The notes under the pieces were generated by a model. That model had not been told where the DNA came from. It made no database searches and saw nothing but the letters and a program-made list of their open reading frames with translations. The translations under genes and the position numbers were made by a program. Of a stretch of 39,020 bases of DNA, positions 6,605 to 15,331 are shown piece by piece (within the stretch, counting starts at the first letter, position 1; the number at the start of each line of letters is the position of its first letter). The stretch is from an uncultured Prevotellaceae bacterium (GTDB lineage: Bacteria > Bacteroidota > Bacteroidia > Bacteroidales > Bacteroidaceae): positions 1-39,020 of the forward strand of contig CACXFT010000108.1 of assembly GCA_902767045.1 (NCBI GenBank). The letters run 5' to 3'.

Positions 6605-7312
6605 ATGAAACAGTATCCTCTTATTAGTGTAGCGCAAGTAACTTATAATTGTGTTAAAAGTATAGAAGAGTCCTTGTTGTCTGTTATAAATCAAACATAT
6701 AATAAACTAGAATATGTCGTTATCGATGGGGGAAGCAGTGACGGGACACTTGAGCTGCTTGAGAAATACAAAGAAAAGATAGATGTCTTAGTCTCTGAGC
6801 CAGACAATGGAATCTACGATGCCATGAACAAGGCTCTGAAATATGCGACGGGAGATTATATTATTTTCCTTGGAGCTGATGACCATTTCATGTCTTGGCG
6901 TACATTGGAGAAGGTGGCACCAAAATTGACGGATCAGGAACACGTGTTTTATGGTCAGATATATTTCGAGTCATATAATTTGTTACATAAAGGTAAGTTC
7001 GACCGTTTTAAACGTGCTAGATTCAACTATTGCCATCAGTCCATCTTTTACCCTAGTTCGGTATATAAAAACTATCAATACGATTGTAAGTTTCGCTTAT
7101 ACGCCGATAATGAATACAATTTCCGCGTTAGCGAAACCCATCCTTTCGTGTGGATAGGCGAGACTGTGTCTTTCTATGCTACTGGTGGTGAGAGTACCAA
7201 AAGAAATGATGAGGAATGGAATAAAATAGAAAAGAAAATAACCATCAAGCACTGTGGGAAAATGGCATGGTGCTACAGATGCTTATGGAAGATGTACAAG
7301 AAGTTAAAATAG
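6605..7312 (+). CDS. Family 2 glycosyltransferase (short, WcaA-like)
   Basis: The protein has 235 residues. PLISVAQVTYNCVKSIEESL, then VVIDGGSSDGTLELL (D41 onward), EPDNGIYDAMNKA and FLGADDHF (D92-D93) form the compact GT2 domain that is common in exopolysaccharide loci. It lacks a long C-terminal domain, so it is essentially just the catalytic module. It should transfer one sugar to the lipid-linked repeat. The start is ATG at 6605, 22 bases after the polymerase stop. The next gene may begin inside its end or 14 bases after it, depending on the start chosen. Confidence 0.92.
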   Translation: MKQYPLISVAQVTYNCVKSIEESLLSVINQTYNKLEYVVIDGGSSDGTLELLEKYKEKIDVLVSEPDNGIYDAMNKALKYATGDYIIFLGADDHFMSWRTLEKVAPKLTDQEHVFYGQIYFESYNLLHKGKFDRFKRARFNYCHQSIFYPSSVYKNYQYDCKFRLYADNEYNFRVSETHPFVWIGETVSFYATGGESTKRNDEEWNKIEKKITIKHCGKMAWCYRCLWKMYKKLK

Positions 7313-7326
7313 ATAATGTTGAAATT

Positions 7327-8268
7327 ATGAACGAAGCAAAAGTGGCTATAGTAATTGTCTGCATGAATAACATGAAAAACCTTGTTACATGTTTAGACAG
7401 TATAGCAAAATATACAAAGATTGAACATGAGGTGTGGGTCAATGCCTATATGTTCTCTGATGAAAATCTGAAGATAGCACAAGAAAAATATCCTTATGTA
7501 CATTGGGTTATAAATAATGAGATAGCTGGATTTGCGGAGAATAACAATATGATTCTCCGCCAGATAAAGACGGAATATGTGCTTGTTCTCAATGATGATA
7601 CTGAATTTAAGGAACCAGTATTGGATAAACTGATGGAAACTATAACTCAGCATGAGGAGATTTCCATTTTATCACCAGTTCTATATCTAGCAGACGGTTC
7701 TGTGCAGTTCTGTGGTAGAAATCCAATTACGATATGGGATTTCATAATGATAGATACATCTTTGGCAGATACGGCAAAACGCCCATCGAAATATATTAAT
7801 CAAAAAGGGTTATTTCAAACGTATAATATTTCAGGTGCTTGTTTTCTGATACGTATGTCCGATTTTCGTGAGCTTGGCTTGTTTGATGAATACTATTTCT
7901 TTAGCCCTGAGGACACTGCTCTTAGTACTCTAGCAAATAAGAAAGGTTATCAATGTTGGGTGGATACAAATGTCGGCGTGACTCACTATTTCGGAAAGAC
8001 AAGAAAAAGTAAAGTGAAACAAGCTGTTTTGCCGGCTCTAAGAGCGGGTTGTATTAAGTTCTATAGCGAAGGCCTTCTATGGAAGTCACTTCTGCTTAAA
8101 ACTATCATTATTATCCAATCTACATTAAAAACTTTTTATTTCTTTGTAAAAGGAGATATTATAGAATATCATGCGCAAAAAAACTGTGTTGCTACTATTT
8201 TTTCAAAAATGACACCTAAAGAAATCTTTGTCTATTATTATAATCAAATTAATCAAAATGAGAAATAA
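7327..8268 (+). CDS. Family 2 glycosyltransferase (rhamnosyltransferase-like)
   Basis: From ATG 7327 the protein has 313 residues beginning MNEAKVAIVIVCMNNMKNL, directly at the first beta strand of a GT2 domain. The frame extends up to 7267, but that would overlap the previous gene by 46 bases and add 20 residues that fit no domain. VLNDDTEF supplies the DxD-type metal site, and GACFLIRMSDFRELGLFDEYYFFSPEDTALS is the acceptor region typical of rhamnosyltransferase-like GT2 enzymes (WbbL group). The C-terminus has a hydrophobic stretch (SLLLKTIIIIQSTLKTFYFFV) that may anchor it to the membrane. Donor unknown. Confidence 0.88.
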   Translation: MNEAKVAIVIVCMNNMKNLVTCLDSIAKYTKIEHEVWVNAYMFSDENLKIAQEKYPYVHWVINNEIAGFAENNNMILRQIKTEYVLVLNDDTEFKEPVLDKLMETITQHEEISILSPVLYLADGSVQFCGRNPITIWDFIMIDTSLADTAKRPSKYINQKGLFQTYNISGACFLIRMSDFRELGLFDEYYFFSPEDTALSTLANKKGYQCWVDTNVGVTHYFGKTRKSKVKQAVLPALRAGCIKFYSEGLLWKSLLLKTIIIIQSTLKTFYFFVKGDIIEYHAQKNCVATIFSKMTPKEIFVYYYNQINQNEK

Positions 8269-8285
8269 ATGTTGAAAATTCTTTA

Positions 8286-8493
8286 ACTCATAAACTTATG
8301 AATGAGTCCACTCCGAAAAGTCCCTACGCTAAAAACGCCTTTCATCCTATCACCTTTATGGATGGTATTGCTATGAATATAGTGGTTTCCATTGATGTTT
8401 TGCCCGATAAAGACACAGGTTCGCGTCAAAATAAAAGCACAATTTGGGGCAATTCTCGATATGAGGGGTTTTCAGAGTGGACTCGTTTATGAG
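8286..8493. repeat. Imperfect terminal inverted repeat around a 208-bp non-coding block
   Basis: The left arm (8286-8320) reads ACTCATAAAC, eight extra bases, then GAGTCCACTCCGAAAAG. The reverse complement of the right arm (about 8468-8493) reads GCTCATAAAC directly followed by GAGTCCACTCTGAAAAC. The arms therefore agree over about 27 bases apart from the 8-base insert. The interior has no credible gene. The whole stretch from 8269 to 8638 is the longest gene-free gap within the cluster. It resembles a MITE or the joined ends of a deleted insertion sequence. I do not recognise the family. Confidence 0.55.
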
Positions 8494-8638
8494 CCAAAGA
8501 AAGAATGTAACCCACTCTTTGAAAGTGAGTGTGACAAGTATATTGTCAAGGACGAGATCCTGTCCAAATAGAACAATCTTATCAAATGCAGCGGATGACA
8601 TGTGTACCAAGTTGTTTTTTAACGATTACAAAATAAAA

Positions 8639-9787
8639 ATGAAAAGAATCCTAGCTTTACTTGATAGTGTCAATTTATATGGAAAAGAATTGTCAAATAT
8701 TGAAGTCTGCAAAACCTTAAAAAGTAATGATTTCGACGTTGTTATGCTTTGCAATTGTGGAGCAAGTAAAGAATTGTATTTAGAATTGTCACTGTTTAAA
8801 AAATATAGAATTCATTTTGCAAGGAATCTTGAAAAAAATAGGTTTTATAAGGTATTCTTGTATTTCTATTATATTATCAAGTCCAACATAGAGATTAATA
8901 ATGTGATTGTTAAAGAAAGACCGAATTATTTCTTAATTCCCACGGAAATAGAAATATTTTTTCTTTATCCTATATTAATTAAGCACAAAAACTTACCTGT
9001 TATTTTTAGAATGGGAGACGCTCCGATTTCATACAGGAAAAAAGGATTAGGTGGCGCAATTTACGGATTACTATGGAAACATTTCTTACTACCTAGAGTT
9101 ACATGTATCGTATCAATATCTAACTTTATTAAAGAAAAATTGAAAGAATCAGGACGCAAAGATAGTAACAAAGATGTTGTGATATATAATTATCCTCCTC
9201 AGAGGACGCTTAATTTAAGCAATCCTATTACTGTTGATGAAGGATGTGTGAAGATCGGATATGCAGGGAGAATAGTTCCAGAAAAAGGAGTTAAAGAACT
9301 CGTAGAGTCTTTTATTAATCTGTGGAATAATGGTTATAAAATCAAATTGTTTATTGCGGGGAACATTGGTGATGACACCTGTTACTATGAAAACATTCTT
9401 AGACTGATAAAAAAAGAAGGAACTATTGAAAATATTGTTTTCTTAGGGAAACTGAGCAACACAGATAGTTTCTATCATATTATGGATATAATTGTATCAC
9501 CTTCAATTTATGAAGAACCATTGGGTAATGTTCTTGTAGAAGCAAAAATTCACCATAAACCTAGTATTATTTTCAATCGTGGTGGTATGCCAGAAATTGT
9601 GGAGCACAAAAATACTGGCTATATCTGCCCGGATGTCTCTGTTGAAAGTCTTGCTGAGGGTATCAAATTCTATCTTGATAATCCTGATCTAATTAAAGTG
9701 CATGGTGAGAATGCTTATAAATCCATTGAAGAATTAGGCCTTACGAAAGAGAGTTATACAGAGAAGTGGTTGAAAGTGTTCTCGTAA
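8639..9787 (+). CDS. Family 4 (GT-B) glycosyltransferase
   Basis: I start it at ATG 8639, giving 382 residues from MKRILALLDSVNLYGKELSN. The frame stays open up to 8477, but those 54 residues lie over the inverted-repeat remnant and have no domain. The C-terminal donor domain is clear: IGYAGRIVPEKGVKELVESF, FIAGNIGDD, IVFLGKLSNTDSFYHIMDI, then PSIYEEPLGNVLVEAKIHHKPSIIFNRGGMPEIV, with EEPLGNVLVEA carrying the paired glutamates of GT4 enzymes. It should add the final or branching sugar of the repeat unit. It is the last glycosyltransferase gene before the defence-like genes, which start 37 bases downstream. Confidence 0.9.
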   Translation: MKRILALLDSVNLYGKELSNIEVCKTLKSNDFDVVMLCNCGASKELYLELSLFKKYRIHFARNLEKNRFYKVFLYFYYIIKSNIEINNVIVKERPNYFLIPTEIEIFFLYPILIKHKNLPVIFRMGDAPISYRKKGLGGAIYGLLWKHFLLPRVTCIVSISNFIKEKLKESGRKDSNKDVVIYNYPPQRTLNLSNPITVDEGCVKIGYAGRIVPEKGVKELVESFINLWNNGYKIKLFIAGNIGDDTCYYENILRLIKKEGTIENIVFLGKLSNTDSFYHIMDIIVSPSIYEEPLGNVLVEAKIHHKPSIIFNRGGMPEIVEHKNTGYICPDVSVESLAEGIKFYLDNPDLIKVHGENAYKSIEELGLTKESYTEKWLKVFS

Positions 9788-9824
9788 AGGAAAGTTGATT
9801 GGCAATTGATTTTAATCTCAAATC

Positions 9825-11894
9825 ATGGCAAAGCAGAAAGTTACACTGACGGATAATAGCATCAAGAGTGGTGTCACGAGTGATGCAAATAAGGCTATCT
9901 GTGAGTATATCTGGAATGGTTTTGATGCTCATGCCAGGCATGTCGCCATAGATTATACCGCAACAGTGTTGGGGGCTATAACTTCGCTAAAGATTGTAGA
10001 TGACGGTGAGGGTATCAACCGATCTAAACTACATGAGACGTTTGGACGATATCAGGATTCGGTCAAGAAAAAGTCTTTTCAGTGGAGTTCACAGGTGAAG
10101 GGGCACAAGGGTAAGGGACGCTATTCATTCAATTGTTTTGCGACAAGGGCTGACTGGACTTCGGTCTATAGGGATGGAGAGAATCTTCTGAAGCATATAG
10201 TGTCGATCAACGCTGGCGACAACGACCATTATAATGACCATTCGGATGAAGGGGGGCAGTTGATAGTTCATAATACAGATACTGGTACGGTGGTGAGTTT
10301 TGTCAACGTAAGACTGTCGGCCGAATTCTTTGAGTCAGATGCTTTTATTGACTACCTGAAAAAGGAATTCGCAGTATTCTTGAAGTTGAATGAGCATAGA
10401 GGTTATTCTATCAAGGTAAATGGAAAGGCTTTGGATTATGAAACGGTCATAGCCGATTCGGATACCAAGGAGACTCGGATCTATGATGAAGACGATGGCA
10501 TGTCATACGACTTCGAGATGACATTTATCAGGTGGACGGAGAAGATGAAGGAGAACTACAGCATCTACTACCTGAACAGCGAGGGTCTGGAACGCCATAA
10601 CGAGACAACTAAACTGAATAGGAAGGATACGGGATTCCACCATAGTGTCTATGTGGTTTCTTCTTATTTTGAGAATTTCGCCTCATCGGCCAAGAAGAAG
10701 GAAAAACAGAAAGAAAAAGAGGAAGGACACTTGGCGTTAGAATTCGATGAGTTCAAAATATTAAAAACGGAAAAGGAACGTACATTCAAAGAACTCAGCA
10801 AACGAGTTTCTGCTTGGATACTTGATAAACAAAAGGATTTTATCTCTGAGGTTGCTGGCAAGGAGCTATGGGACAGGTTTGAAAAAAACGGTGTCGTAGA
10901 ATTGCCTCTCAATGAATACGAAGAACCGCTGTTCTATGAACTTAGGGATACCGTGAAGGGTATATATTCTGTGCAACCGAAGATTTTTCAGAATATCAAA
11001 AATGATCAGGCAAAGGCATTGGTGGGCTTTCTGAAACTCCTGCTTCAGACCAACAAAAGAGATGATGTCTTAAAGATTTTAGAGGGTATCGTGGAGATGT
11101 CTGATGAGGAGCGTCATCGTCTGGCGGAGATCTTGAAAGTGACGGAATTGTCGCGAATAACAGATACTATAGCCTTGCTCGAAAACCGGTTGAAAACGGT
11201 CTCTGCGTTAAAGAAGATGGTTTTTGACAAAGACCTTAAAGCATACGAGGTGCAAGATGTACAGAAGATGATAGCATCGGCATTTTGGCTCTTTGGCGAG
11301 CAATACAATATTGTGACAGAGGCTGAACCCGATTTTCAACAGGCACTGGAGGCTTACCTGGAAAAGATTCACACAGAAGTGAAGGGGGTAAGCAAGAGCA
11401 AGATTAATGCGGAAAAGATAGAGCATCCCGATGTGAACAAGGAGATGGACATCTTCGCATTCAGACAGAACAGCCATAGCCAGACGTTGGAAAATATAGT
11501 TATAGAACTGAAGCGCCCCAGCGTAAAGTTAGGGGAGGTGGAGGTCAGCCAGGTGAAGGCTTATATGGGATTGATATATCAAGAGCATCAGTTCAATTCT
11601 CCCGATGCACAATGGACATTCATCTTGGTAGGCAATGAGTTTGATACAAGCAGATACATTCAGAGAGAGCTAAAGTCTAATAAGGCATGGGGTAAGAAGA
11701 ACCTGATACAGCATGTAGACGAAGATGGGCAGCATTATGAGATCTATGTCAGGACATGGAGTTCCATCTTCGATGATTTTGAGAAACGTCATCAGTTCCT
11801 GCTTGACAGACTGAACTTCAAGAGGAGGGAACTGACGGCAAAATACAATAACAAGCAGGATCTGCATCGGATAGTTGAGGAGGCAAGGGAATAA
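9825..11894 (+). CDS. GHKL ATPase fused to a PD-(D/E)XK nuclease (defence-like)
   Basis: The protein has 689 residues. Residues 1-120 hold all Bergerat-fold ATP-binding motifs: EYIWNGFDA (E27, N31, D34), VDDGEGI (DxGxG at 59-63) and GHKGKG (GxxGxG, 93-98). Domains of this shape occur in MutL, Hsp90 and prokaryotic MORC-like proteins linked to DNA restriction. A charged linker (about 285-330, KKKEKQKEKEEG) leads to a helical middle. At the C-terminus D542, then E561-L-K563 and a QxxxY motif (QVKAY) form a PD-(D/E)XK nuclease core. I infer ATP-gated DNA cleavage or recruitment together with the two downstream genes. ATG 9825 is the natural start. The next gene starts only 7 bases after its stop. 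The exact role is unknown. Confidence 0.85.
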   Translation: MAKQKVTLTDNSIKSGVTSDANKAICEYIWNGFDAHARHVAIDYTATVLGAITSLKIVDDGEGINRSKLHETFGRYQDSVKKKSFQWSSQVKGHKGKGRYSFNCFATRADWTSVYRDGENLLKHIVSINAGDNDHYNDHSDEGGQLIVHNTDTGTVVSFVNVRLSAEFFESDAFIDYLKKEFAVFLKLNEHRGYSIKVNGKALDYETVIADSDTKETRIYDEDDGMSYDFEMTFIRWTEKMKENYSIYYLNSEGLERHNETTKLNRKDTGFHHSVYVVSSYFENFASSAKKKEKQKEKEEGHLALEFDEFKILKTEKERTFKELSKRVSAWILDKQKDFISEVAGKELWDRFEKNGVVELPLNEYEEPLFYELRDTVKGIYSVQPKIFQNIKNDQAKALVGFLKLLLQTNKRDDVLKILEGIVEMSDEERHRLAEILKVTELSRITDTIALLENRLKTVSALKKMVFDKDLKAYEVQDVQKMIASAFWLFGEQYNIVTEAEPDFQQALEAYLEKIHTEVKGVSKSKINAEKIEHPDVNKEMDIFAFRQNSHSQTLENIVIELKRPSVKLGEVEVSQVKAYMGLIYQEHQFNSPDAQWTFILVGNEFDTSRYIQRELKSNKAWGKKNLIQHVDEDGQHYEIYVRTWSSIFDDFEKRHQFLLDRLNFKRRELTAKYNNKQDLHRIVEEARE

Positions 11895-11901
11895 ATTAGA
11901 A

Positions 11902-13665
11902 ATGAATCGAGAAATTATGCCATTAAAATTTAAACTGATACCAGTTTGCTACCAGGACGCTAAATATTATGATAGCATGGATGCAGACTTCCTGCTGGAG
12001 TACGATGACTGGAATGACTATGGATATCGGACAACCTTCCATCTTCATGCCAGTAAGAAGCTAACAGGAAGAAAAACACAATACCTTGGCACAATACATA
12101 TCATGCATTATGGGCAAACGACATCTGAGGGGAGTCTTGCCAAATTTGGGCTCAAAGTGGATTCAAGGTTTGAAACTTTACCTGACGAAGTGGTATCGAT
12201 CTCTTTCGCACAGGATTTATATCGTGGTGTCAGCCAACTGCTTCAGCAAAGAGAACGGCGATTGGGGTTCGTGAAGGCGTTGAGGCTCTTACTGGGTACG
12301 GACGATTCACGTTACGAGAAACTGAAGGAGGACAAATGCTTCAATACTTCAATCCTACGGAATGCCACGATGGATTCTTTCGCATTGAAGAAGGGCAGGC
12401 AGTACTTGCTGGATGAAGGCATTTTGTACGACCTGGAAAAAAAAACGCTGACAGTTAAGTTTGCGAGATCGGAAGAGCCAATCCTTCTCAATTTTGATAC
12501 ACCTTTGGCTGATGGCAGTGAAGAAACCGTGCCTTATGGGATGATTGCCTTTATTGGTCATAACGGGAGTGGCAAGAGCACGCTGCTCTATCAAATAGCG
12601 CGATGTCTGTATGCTTCGCCGTTGGACAGAGCGAAACTGAAGGACATCAGAATAGAGCCATCTGACGTGGGTATAACTAAGCTGATGATGTTCTCATATA
12701 GTGCATTCGACAATTTCCTATTTCCTGGCATAACGTTGTCCGACTACCGCTTGATGGCAGAAGGAGTGGAAAGTAGGAAGGGAAGGTTCGTCTACTGTGG
12801 TGTCAGGGATGTCCGAAAGGAGATGGAGAATTATATTCAAGGCTATTTAGCCAAGAAAGGCAGAAAGAAACAGGATGAAGGCGCTAATGAAGAACAGGAG
12901 AATCCTATCATCGTACAAGATGAAAGGACGGACGAGGTAGTTCTGAAGCCTATATCGGAATTGGCCAGTGAGTTTTTTGAGGCTTTGCAGGTTATCGGGA
13001 GCCATGAATCAATCCGCTCACGATGGATGGAAATGGGGACGCGGTGCGAAACATTACAGCCTTCGCTTTATTCGGATATAAAGCCTTTTGTGGAGCATTA
13101 CTTTCTGTGGAGTGATATTACTCCAGAGGAGTATCTGAGGTTATCGACTGGCGTGAAGTTCTTCTTGCATATCATGAGCCATATATATGCCTACAATGAG
13201 GACAACAGCATATTGTTATTTGACGAGCCGGAGAACCATCTTCATCCGCCCATGTTATCGTTTATGATGAACGAGATACGTCAGACAATTCGGCAGACGC
13301 ACAGTGTCATGCTGATTGCTACGCATTCTCCAGTGATTCTTCAAGAATTGTTTGCACGAAATGTATATGTGGTAAGGCGCGGTGGTGAGCACCTTTCATT
13401 CCGGCATCCTGTTACGGAAACTTTTGGAGAGAACTTTGGATATATCAACAATCTGGTGTTTAACCTGAATAGCGACATGACCAACTTTCAAGAAGTATTC
13501 AATGTGCTCTACAATAAATGGAACTGTAGGTCGGTGGATTCGCCAGAGGGTGTTATCAGGATGTTTGAGGAAAAATTGCAATGCCAGTCTATGAGCAGTC
13601 AGATGGTTACTTATTTGGCAAATATGCATTTTAATAAAAGATTGGATGGGCATGTGGATTCTTGA
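11902..13665 (+). CDS. PtuA-like ABC/SMC-type ATPase of a Septu-like module
   Basis: From ATG 11902 the protein has 587 residues. The longer frame starts at a TTG at 11875 inside the previous gene, so I prefer the ATG. Walker A is GHNGSGKST (G219-T227, K225), the ABC signature-like LSTG is at 414-417, Walker B is ILLFDEPENHLHP with D441 and E442, and the switch histidine lies in ATHSP (H475). The gap between Walker A and the signature is short, with no long coiled coil, which fits the PtuA/RloC-like 'AAA_21' group rather than true SMC proteins. Known PtuA proteins bind PtuB nucleases and control them by nucleotide binding. It overlaps the HNH gene by 20 bases, pointing to a fixed ratio complex. 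Confidence 0.85.
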   Translation: MNREIMPLKFKLIPVCYQDAKYYDSMDADFLLEYDDWNDYGYRTTFHLHASKKLTGRKTQYLGTIHIMHYGQTTSEGSLAKFGLKVDSRFETLPDEVVSISFAQDLYRGVSQLLQQRERRLGFVKALRLLLGTDDSRYEKLKEDKCFNTSILRNATMDSFALKKGRQYLLDEGILYDLEKKTLTVKFARSEEPILLNFDTPLADGSEETVPYGMIAFIGHNGSGKSTLLYQIARCLYASPLDRAKLKDIRIEPSDVGITKLMMFSYSAFDNFLFPGITLSDYRLMAEGVESRKGRFVYCGVRDVRKEMENYIQGYLAKKGRKKQDEGANEEQENPIIVQDERTDEVVLKPISELASEFFEALQVIGSHESIRSRWMEMGTRCETLQPSLYSDIKPFVEHYFLWSDITPEEYLRLSTGVKFFLHIMSHIYAYNEDNSILLFDEPENHLHPPMLSFMMNEIRQTIRQTHSVMLIATHSPVILQELFARNVYVVRRGGEHLSFRHPVTETFGENFGYINNLVFNLNSDMTNFQEVFNVLYNKWNCRSVDSPEGVIRMFEEKLQCQSMSSQMVTYLANMHFNKRLDGHVDS

Positions 13666-14494
13666 AAAACCGCTGATAGATGAAGCTTTGAGCGACATCG
13701 CACGCGTTATAGCGGAGAGCAATGCTAGCCTGACAGGTACAGATGGAACCAGTCTGAATAGCCTTTATCGCCTATATGACAGACAGGGTGGAACTATCTC
13801 GAAACAGCAAGATGAGACGCTGAGCGCGTCTGCCCGCAATACTCTCTACAACTTATATGATAAAACACAGGAAGGACGGAGACTGTCATACATTCGCACA
13901 CAGCTGTTCAAGGCTGTTGATGTATGTCCGATGTGTGGCATACAGCCGCCAAGCCAACTTGACCACCAGATGCCTCGCTCAAAATACAAATCTCTTTCTG
14001 TCTGTCGTCTGAACCTTGTCCCTTTATGTGGGGTTTGCAATAACAAGAAAAAAGCGTCTGATGCCTCTACTTTTGTACACCCCTATTATGACCATGAGTT
14101 ACAAGACCTGCCTTTCTTCATTATAGATGTACACTCCAGTCCTGTAACCCATAGATTGTCGTGGAAGTTCTCTATCAATGAACAGGTGGTAGGCAATCCT
14201 ACGCTTGCTGCAAAAATCAGTACTCAGGTAGGGGTGGTGAAGCTTTTTAGAAGACTTTACAAGGAGACAAACAATTTGCTTTCTGATTTGCTCTTTGATG
14301 CTGAAGGCTGGAACGAAGAGACTTTTGAGTTCATAATGCAGCGAGAGTATAGAAAACATCTTTGCCTTCGGGGAACTAATGACTGGCATACGTTATTCAT
14401 AAAAGCACTTTTAGACTCTCCGCGCTTCTCGCTTCAGGAAGCCAAAGTCTATGCACAGAGAATCACGCCTGTTAATCAAGGCCTTAACGGGTAA
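13646..14494 (+). CDS. PtuB-like HNH endonuclease of a Septu-like module
   Basis: The protein has 282 residues. A zinc-ribbon-supported HNH site is plain: CPMCG (C94, C97), then LDHQMPRSKYKSLSV with D106 and H107, LNLVPLCGVCNNKKK with N123, C128, C131 and N132. The pattern 'DH-x-x-P-x-S-x-[YF]-x-x-[LF]-S-V ... NLVP-x-C-x-x-CN-x-K' is what PtuB nucleases of Septu show. Residues 1-80 hold a low-complexity leader that may dock on the ATPase, and about 130 residues follow the HNH core. It should nick or cut DNA when the ATPase complex is triggered. It starts 20 bases inside the PtuA-like gene and is the last gene of the three-gene set. Confidence 0.87.
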   Translation: MGMWILEKPLIDEALSDIARVIAESNASLTGTDGTSLNSLYRLYDRQGGTISKQQDETLSASARNTLYNLYDKTQEGRRLSYIRTQLFKAVDVCPMCGIQPPSQLDHQMPRSKYKSLSVCRLNLVPLCGVCNNKKKASDASTFVHPYYDHELQDLPFFIIDVHSSPVTHRLSWKFSINEQVVGNPTLAAKISTQVGVVKLFRRLYKETNNLLSDLLFDAEGWNEETFEFIMQREYRKHLCLRGTNDWHTLFIKALLDSPRFSLQEAKVYAQRITPVNQGLNG

Positions 14495-14520: not shown

Positions 14521-14658
14521 ATGAAAAGAATATCGATTATTGATTATCTCCGTGGCATCAGCATCTTTACGATTGTGTTGATGCATCTGTGCCAGAGTCA
14601 TTTTTGGGGATACGGCTACAGCAGGCTATCTGTTTTGCTCCATCAGCTCCTGAGATAG
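14521..14658 (+). pseudogene. 5' stub of an acyltransferase-3 gene
   Basis: ATG at 14521 starts a peptide of 45 residues, MKRISIIDYLRGISIFTIV and onward, ending at TAG 14656-14658. The opening, with its conserved arginine in DYLRGISI and H in MH, is the first membrane helix of acyltransferase-3 (O-acyltransferase, OafA/WecH-like) proteins, which are normally 320-400 residues long. The rest is missing: from about 14600 on, the sequence belongs to the 3' side of a minus-strand gene. I read it as a polysaccharide O-acyltransferase gene truncated when the DUF3791/DUF3990 block arrived. Confidence 0.65.
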
Positions 14659-14853
14659 ATAGTGATAAACATAGCCGGAACTTTGGGTATATAGAAGGGA
14701 AGTGGGACGCAAAAGGGCACGATAAATGTTGGAGTTATACACTGCTTCAATGGCCTTGGGTAGTGTATAATGCTTCTTGTCCATGAGCATCTGGATAAGA
14801 TCAGCAGTGATGCTCTCCGTCATAAATCTGAATTCTTGTTCACTGATGTTCAT
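14626..14853 (-). CDS. Small protein of the DUF3990 operon, possibly DUF3791-related
   Basis: From ATG at 14853 (reverse strand) the protein has 75 residues beginning MNISEQEFRFMTESITADL. The frame is open to 14895, but that would overlap the DUF3990 gene by 56 bases, while 14853 gives a 14-base overlap. It is helical, with EAVYNSNIYRALLRPTSLLYTQSSGYVYHYLSQEL, a pattern I associate with small partner proteins next to DUF3990 genes. It has no known catalytic motif. It is likely co-transcribed and could be an antitoxin or accessory partner. Its 3' end lies over the acyltransferase stub. Confidence 0.7.
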   Translation of the reverse strand: MNISEQEFRFMTESITADLIQMLMDKKHYTLPKAIEAVYNSNIYRALLRPTSLLYTQSSGYVYHYLSQELMEQNR

Positions 14854-15331
14854 ATCTTGCAAGTTGGTTAATGGCTTTTTGGGTACAGAACGCATATTGG
14901 AAAGTGATACCTTTCATGTACTGCAAACGGCGGAGAAATTCTTTTTTGTCGATAGTCCCCAATCGGTAATTGCGGATTTGAAGGCCTACACGGTCGTTAG
15001 CAATTGGGCCGTAAACTACATCATAGTCGTGCATGAAAGGTGGGGAGATTGTCTCGTCGCGATGCTTATAGACAAAATTTGCCCATTCTTCTGTATAGCT
15101 GTCAAAAGATTTAAAGCGCAGTGTTCCATCGGTGAGTAGGCGGTCTTCGAAGTCAAATTCATATACAATGGGCATGCCTCCAAAAATATCTACCCTGGCA
15201 TTAGCTACGATTAAAGCCTGATTGGAATCTGCTGTCAAATAGAATGCCTGACCGAAATCTTTATATGGATTGCAACAAGAGAGGTTAATTTGCGTAAAAT
15301 GCTTGTTTGAACCATGATAAAGCTTAATCAT
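14840..15331 (-). CDS. DUF3990 protein, possible ADP-ribosyltransferase-fold toxin
   Basis: The 163-residue protein begins MIKLYHGSNKHFTQINL and continues YKDFGQAFYLTADSNQA, the defining pattern of DUF3990. The family is placed with ADP-ribosyltransferase-like folds: LYHGS resembles the NAD-binding histidine strand and FYLT the second-strand tyrosine. YTEEWANFVYKHRD further on is the family core, and its glutamate could play the role of the catalytic acid. The toxin role is inference from the fold and from the small genes on both sides. It overlaps the upstream DUF3791 gene by 4 bases and the downstream small gene by about 14. Confidence 0.75.
   Translation of the reverse strand: MIKLYHGSNKHFTQINLSCCNPYKDFGQAFYLTADSNQALIVANARVDIFGGMPIVYEFDFEDRLLTDGTLRFKSFDSYTEEWANFVYKHRDETISPPFMHDYDVVYGPIANDRVGLQIRNYRLGTIDKKEFLRRLQYMKGITFQYAFCTQKAINQLARYEHQ

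Follow-up and report, generated by a model that had tools for sequence, protein, structure and literature searches.

The subject of this analysis is a group of three tandem plus-strand genes, here called G, A, and B in that order, which occupy positions 9825-14494 of contig CACXFT010000108.1 (assembly GCA_902767045.1) from an uncultured Prevotellaceae bacterium; the whole analysed stretch of 39,020 nucleotides is called the window below. G codes for a protein that joins a GHKL ATPase to a PD-(D/E)XK nuclease at its C-terminus, A for a PtuA-like ATPase, and B for a PtuB-like HNH nuclease. Our results make it quite likely that these genes are two separately distributed modules placed head to tail, namely a lone G of the paraMORC3 type and an A-B pair of the Ea59-Ea31 type (PADLOC candidate type PDC-M01), each likely anti-phage alone. 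Both modules are of known kinds and simply stand side by side. A first-pass annotation, made from the sequence of this DNA, had proposed one three-gene defence system in which G licenses a PtuA-PtuB nuclease.

A conserved trio was rejected because the two modules stand apart in 42 other G loci and in nine other A-B loci. Indeed, BLASTP and the A2/A3 profiles placed an A-B pair beside G in 0/42 of the former, and 0/9 of the latter had G. The 42 G loci comprised 29 of the 30 loci from named species, ten loci opened with wide flanks, and L074, L075, and L090. They include two pairs that look near-duplicate (L001/L023 and L015/L027) and five loci with a broken G (L013, L018, L024, L027, and L079). 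Set apart from them were L030, whose G piece scored above the cut-off, L068 and L076, where G lies at the end of the contig or record with no A or B seen, and the two Paracoccus yeei loci described below (L088 and L089). L068 was the one partial G relative found among viral contigs, and no viral contig had A.

In the 30 named-species loci with G relatives there was no B, and BLASTP gave no A apart from a weak match in L007, where an AAA_15 plus OLD TOPRIM gene is followed by a UvrD gene in a Gabija-like arrangement. The ten wide-flank loci, which came from the family and phylum searches given below, had no A or B by BLASTP. Furthermore, the profile search of open reading frames (ORFs) in the G loci gave no B and only remote ATPases, one of them a PtuA (L080). 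The A2-profile matches were a split ORF 102 bp after G whose best model was the retron I-B ATPase-Toprim (L004), AriA at 7 kb from G (L005), mad3 (L002), the Gabija-like gene of L007, the PtuA of L080, and further matches in L010 and L075; none of these matches in the G loci was a PDC-M01 pair. In single-sequence searches, with the window's genome counted, G was present in 6/399 genomes of the family (expect value, E, 1e-10) and 7/395 of the phylum (E 1e-20), and A in 1/399 and 1/395 (both at E 1e-30).

The nine A-B loci were six plasmid loci (L069-L073 and L077), picked from 87 plasmid records with A, together with phage lambda, L032, and L033. A restriction of A to the window's own genome appeared only in the single-sequence search at E 1e-30 and was rejected, as profiles revealed A-B pairs in L032 (274-3029, +) and L033 (457-2846, +), one from the window's order and one from its genus. 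The profile scores there were 5.9e-83 and 1.1e-58 for A and 4.1e-34 and 1.8e-28 for B, and neither genome had G. In L035, the A and B profiles found an HNH gene adjoining a weaker ATPase. At E 1e-3, A matched 24/100 of the first relatives, nearly all of them remote ATPases. The lists of matches to A and B had 26 longest-contig sizes in common against a background of 0.44, the comparison being made on the best 120 of 642 matches for G, 120 of 1059 for A, and 91 of 91 for B.

In its gene neighbourhood, G had a same-strand neighbour at 50 bp or less in 18/42 loci; the other 24 had none, and L024 is counted among these because the gene next to G there is itself a fragment of G. A family could be assigned to 16/18 of these close neighbours. 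Fourteen were defence, candidate-defence, or Schlafen/Abi-type genes: Abi_alpha (L001, L023), TIR-NLR (L006), AlbA_2 and/or HATPase_c_4 (L010, L015, L016, L027), GmrSD_N/NsnA (L012), HsdR (L013, L014, L084), PtuA-PtuB (L080), AbiEi-AbiEii (L081), and a Hachiman-like HamA-HamB with a weak HamA (L090). Two were domains of unknown function without a PADLOC match (DUF2806 in L002 and DUF4062 in L082), and the last two, in L008 and L087, had no family match. G is closely coupled to about eight other types of defence gene.

This variety of partners could also be read as a sign that G is a general plug-in, which would supply any adjoining defence system, PtuAB-like ones included, with a trigger or with another DNA-cutting output, an idea that overlaps with the single-system proposal. 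We rate it as unlikely. Although 18 of the 42 loci have a close neighbour, mostly of a defence type, close pairs involving G were rarer (21/81, the piece in L024 included and ORFs called mechanically) than those among the remaining neighbouring genes in these loci (197/495; Fisher p 0.019), so that G is the less packed gene. Moreover, defence islands are packed anyway, and the related protein VcSduA works alone (PMC12137116, in the excerpted text).

The domain composition of G agrees with a family already described. Pfam matches were HATPase_c_3 (residues 21-133, E 3.9e-14) and, weakly, HSDR_N_2 (residues 520-583); among 57 aligned G sequences, the first was matched by 57/57 and the second by 44/57. 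Residues E27, N31, D59, G61, G96, G98, R99, D542, E561, K563, and Q576 are invariant in this alignment, as is E475, and Y580 is kept in at least 90%. A profile search with G found Mlh1, PMS2, MutL, and MORC2. The predicted model (mean predicted local distance difference test score, pLDDT, 81.8; predicted template modelling score, pTM, 0.57) matches Hsp90/TRAP1, MORC, and MutL over its N-terminal half in a structure comparison; a second, structure-based comparison ran mainly over G residues 7-344 and A residues 173-583, so that a lack of further families in it carries no weight.

The family paraMORC3 was described as combining GHKL and S5 domains with a restriction-endonuclease domain that bears an E-D-ExK signature, and as prevalent in Proteobacteria and Bacteroidetes, with a subset of stand-alone members lacking a conserved neighbourhood (Iyer et al. 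2008, PMC2292703, in the excerpted description). G has the same plan. Its N-terminal GHKL domain carries intact ATP-binding motifs, the model predicts an S5/transducer-like domain after it, and the aligned sequences keep what appears to be the C-terminal signature (E475, D542, E561-x-K563). The 42 G loci share no conserved neighbourhood either, as in the stand-alone members. No difference was found in the features compared, the comparison being with the published description rather than by alignment to the published sequences; here G lies 7 bases upstream of an A-B pair. G therefore matches paraMORC3, as far as that description extends, and is placed there by it; the combination of GHKL ATPase and nuclease, which the first-pass annotation did not know from Septu, is not new to description.

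A second likeness is to VcSduA (GHKL-Shedu, type I-D), a single gene that is enough for protection, with both E27 and K557 required (PMC12137116, excerpt). Like G, VcSduA joins GHKL and PD-(D/E)XK parts in one protein and has a glutamate at position 27, and its nuclease lysine K557 lies at about the same place as K563 of G. VcSduA is filed under Shedu, whereas G lacks SduA_C, and the likeness is one of architecture and of the excerpted text of that paper, not of aligned sequences. Indeed, SduA_C/DUF4263 (PF14082) was matched at E 0.01 or better by 0/57 G sequences, and the identification of G as Shedu (SduA) by Pfam was rejected on this count. Because of this negative result, G is filed as paraMORC3 and likened to VcSduA only in its probable mode of action, and only the shared architecture carries the transfer from VcSduA to G, which tempers the reading of G as a lone anti-phage gene. 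By this analogy, G probably works like VcSduA.

A and B form a pair of another kind. A carries AAA_21/AAA_15 (Pfam), with K225, D441-E442-P443-E444, and T474-H475-S476-P477 invariant in 34 aligned sequences; B carries HNH (2.4e-5), with C94, C97, D106, H107, C128, C131, and N132 invariant in 29. To judge from the alignments of the three proteins, G, A, and B are real genes under purifying selection and not chance motifs. The best PADLOC matches were PDC-M01A for A (1.7e-69) and PDC-M01B for B (1.3e-30), adjacent and in A-B order as in the PDC-M01 model, and no PADLOC family matched G at E 1 or better. A PADLOC comparison, proposed with the first-pass annotation, thus supported a defence candidate for the pair and gave no model for G.

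Septu consists of PtuA and PtuB, and the same annotation had found the motifs expected of Septu in A and B. The ATPase and HNH motifs are there, and A has the PtuA core, with Walker A/B residues (K225, D441, E442) invariant, a match to the PtuA1 model PDLC00282 (1.2e-51), and PtuA as its top match in a PDB profile search. However, the pair is of the PDC-M01 type and not canonical Septu. The PtuA of Septu begins at the ATPase domain; residue 1 of the 8ee4 PtuA (465 amino acids) aligns at residue 178 of A, which has about 172-177 extra N-terminal residues, and the PtuA of L080 (408 amino acids) matches PDLC00271 from residue 1. As for B, the best 25 of its 41 PADLOC families were PDC-M01B (24) and PDC-M62B (1), with no PtuB model among them; by contrast, the canonical PtuB of L080 matches PtuB at 2.3e-50. 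Canonical Septu was rejected for A-B on account of the extra N-terminal domain in A and of PtuB not being among these 25 best matches of B, and retron I-A on account of the reverse transcriptase that marks it, which was absent from the flanking ORFs scanned. By these matches, A-B belongs to the PDC-M01 type, as does Ea59-Ea31 of phage lambda; the pair stands alone and is distinct from canonical Septu.

The two lambda genes likewise follow each other in the order A-B and overlap, there by 4 bases, and identity in alignments is only 24% for Ea59 and A and 19% for Ea31 and B. The search with G matched no lambda record. As a separate observation, PADLOC scores lambda ea59-ea31 (L091, NC_001416, 2010-4474, minus strand) as a PDC-M01 pair (3.9e-201 and 5.8e-113), and because of this a candidate defence pair appears to lie in the lambda b-region. 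In the open-access literature (titles and beginnings of abstracts), we found no description of Ea59-Ea31 as a defence pair, nor did we find a published target.

Several observations weigh against two independent modules. The first is locus L080, from the window's own family, where PtuA (7155-8381), PtuB (8378-9010), and G (9000-11021) follow each other on the plus strand, with overlaps of 4 bases (PtuA/PtuB) and 11 bases (PtuB/G). This is a second, independent coupling of G to PtuAB, and it is the strongest point for the first-pass annotation. The PtuAB of L080 is canonical (PtuA 4.8e-126; for PtuB see above), lies in reversed order relative to the window, and belongs to a different subfamily from A-B.

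The second concerns contigs. The nearest relatives of G (P0001, 89%), A (P0121, 97%), and B (P0241, 98%) are all on a contig of size 8895. Because they share this size, the trio probably occurs once more in a close relative, on one near-identical metagenome contig, and, as far as these sequences tell, probably persisted through some divergence. Against P0001, identity of G falls to 66-88% per 50-residue block at residues 101-350 (window 10125-10874) and is 92-100% elsewhere; A and B stay at 90-100%. Most of the variable part falls in the transducer/middle domain, and the clamp region of G is possibly diverging fast or exchanged by recombination. The G and A lists had six contig sizes in common against a background of 0.61 (maximum 3). 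Most of these links, and one between the G and B lists, were rejected: contigs 2624 and 2870 (G-A) and 2383 (G-B) are too short for both genes, contig 3595 lacks the room for G plus A upstream of P0168, a sequence that starts within the protein, and the 5275 matches come from different sources. For size 6692 (P0060, P0174), a second contig with both G and A is possible.

The third comes from plasmids. Among 72,556 records, A was present in 87 and G in 45, and comparing 60 listed A records with all 45 G records gave two with both, P. yeei and Streptomyces NZ_CP108307, the latter with some 218 kb between G and A. In the P. yeei plasmid (L088, 6352-11932), G is broken and A is represented by an N-terminal fragment; about 3 kb and two IS3 elements separate them, and no B was found. 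A second P. yeei locus (L089) has a piece of G, and its sole A match is a short stretch inside an ABC transporter gene. Finally, the three genes of the window are spaced as in an operon and alike in G+C (42-45%), and the G loci L006, L024, L025, L026, and L084 are truncated next to G, so that an A-B pair could be missed there.

These observations bear on the proposal that the trio is one system, in which the GHKL protein would sense phage, clamp DNA, and license the PtuA-PtuB-like nuclease, with a double nuclease output. The tight spacing, the near-identical contig, L080, and the P. yeei plasmid speak for it. On the other side stand the absence of A-B beside G and of G beside A-B in the surveyed loci, the coupling of G with so many other kinds of defence gene, the two IS3 elements and missing B in Paracoccus, and the other subfamily of the L080 PtuAB. 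On balance we consider it improbable. The neighbourhood survey proposed with the first-pass annotation revealed no intact trio in unrelated genomes, nor any beyond the one probable near-identical contig, and in the open-access literature (titles and beginnings of abstracts) we found no description of a GHKL-PtuA-PtuB trio. With no intact trio elsewhere and G fitting the described family paraMORC3, that proposal largely falls on its own terms, as it had named both outcomes as refuting; L080 and the Paracoccus pieces are what remains in its favour. There is likewise only a small chance that paraMORC3 is a plug-in licensing partner recruited at least twice, in opposite orders (the window and L080), to PtuAB-type effectors, with an ATP-driven clamp arming a second nuclease in a two-ATPase, two-nuclease composite. 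If true, this would mean that a PtuAB effector is under the control of a GHKL clamp.

Other parts of the first-pass annotation held. The three ORFs lie where it had put them, with 7 bases between the stop of G and the ATG of A (11902), and a shorter A start agrees with many relatives in the alignment. Its domain reading was borne out by HATPase_c_3, the weak HSDR_N_2, AAA_21, and HNH; the catalytic residues it had named are invariant in the 57, 34, and 29 aligned relatives, with only Y580 of QxxxY at the lower figure given above, and its label "defence-like" stands. The 20-base overlap it gave for A and B agrees with the ORF list and becomes 14 bases if B starts at the second methionine (MWILEKP, 13652), which is the start in most aligned relatives. 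With such spacing, the three genes may plausibly be transcribed together. Coordinates are given in Table 1.

Table 1. Features of the G, A, and B genes in the window.
Feature	Position	Strand	Basis
G: paraMORC3-type GHKL ATPase with C-terminal PD-(D/E)XK nuclease, 689 aa	9825..11894	+	ORF, profiles, alignment, model, PMC2292703 (excerpt)
G, GHKL ATPase domain, about residues 21-207; E27, N31, D59xG61, G96xG98-R99, G154 invariant	9885..10445	+	
G, transducer/middle domain, about residues 208-345, predicted fold resembling Hsp90 middle domain and MORC	10446..10859	+	predicted model
G, restriction-endonuclease-type domain, about residues 475-650; E475, D542, E561, K563, Q576 invariant	11247..11774	+	
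A: PtuA-like (Ea59-type, PDC-M01A) ABC-type ATPase, 587 aa; start possibly 11917	11902..13665	+	
A, extra N-terminal domain, about residues 1-172, conserved W37-N38-D39; upstream of the PtuA-aligned part	11902..12417	+	
B: HNH endonuclease (Ea31-type, PDC-M01B), 280 aa from conserved start; in ORF list from 13646, 282 aa	13652..14494	+	
B, HNH/zinc core, C94xxC97, D106-H107, C128xxC131-N132	13925..14056	+	

The trio is flanked by polysaccharide genes: upstream lie glycosyltransferases and a gene with a weak match to Wzy_C, and downstream a gene of the WecG type. Along the window (1-39020), G+C steps up from 31-38% in the upstream polysaccharide genes through 42-45% in the trio to 48-55% beyond about 16 kb; these steps suggest that the trio arrived laterally. 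The downstream ORFs scanned were a small ORF, a DUF3990 gene, and the WecG-type gene. Directly after the trio, a 45-codon ORF (MKRISIIDYLRGIS..., window 14521-14658, +) appears cut short, and we take it to resemble the start of a membrane acyltransferase.

The locus might also be decaying baggage in a polysaccharide gene cluster, with no present role in defence. The trio does lie between glycosyltransferase genes and next to the acyltransferase-like remnant, and several relatives of G are broken (the five loci listed above). However, the three genes of the window are intact and keep every catalytic residue, and we hold decay to be very improbable.

Convergent with the trio are the DUF3990 gene and a small gene overlapping it (window 14626-14895 and 14840-15331, both minus strand), which match the PADLOC candidate PDC-M13 (3.4e-40 and 5.4e-11). 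This match makes them a candidate for a third defence or toxin module beside the trio.

Under the two-module arrangement, G would form an ATP-bound dimer through its GHKL domains, as VcSduA and the GHKL fold lead us to expect. Its middle domain may then close as a clamp on phage DNA or on a phage protein, and the clamp would position the C-terminal PD-(D/E)XK nuclease to cut the invading DNA, as proposed for VcSduA. A could oligomerise with B and restrain the HNH nuclease as long as no phage cue is received. The target of A-B may be DNA or tRNA; cutting of tRNA-Tyr is known from the PtuAB of Septu and retrons (PMC13096335, excerpt), which is another branch. Co-transcription of the two modules could give a layered defence.

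If the two-module reading is right, the window would add an intact neighbouring pair to two thinly characterised kinds of system, the stand-alone GHKL-nucleases and the Ea59-Ea31/PDC-M01 pairs. Among the former, VcSduA is the one shown to protect (PMC12137116, in the excerpted text). It would also be a caution for the annotation of defence islands, where tight spacing of genes does not make a system.

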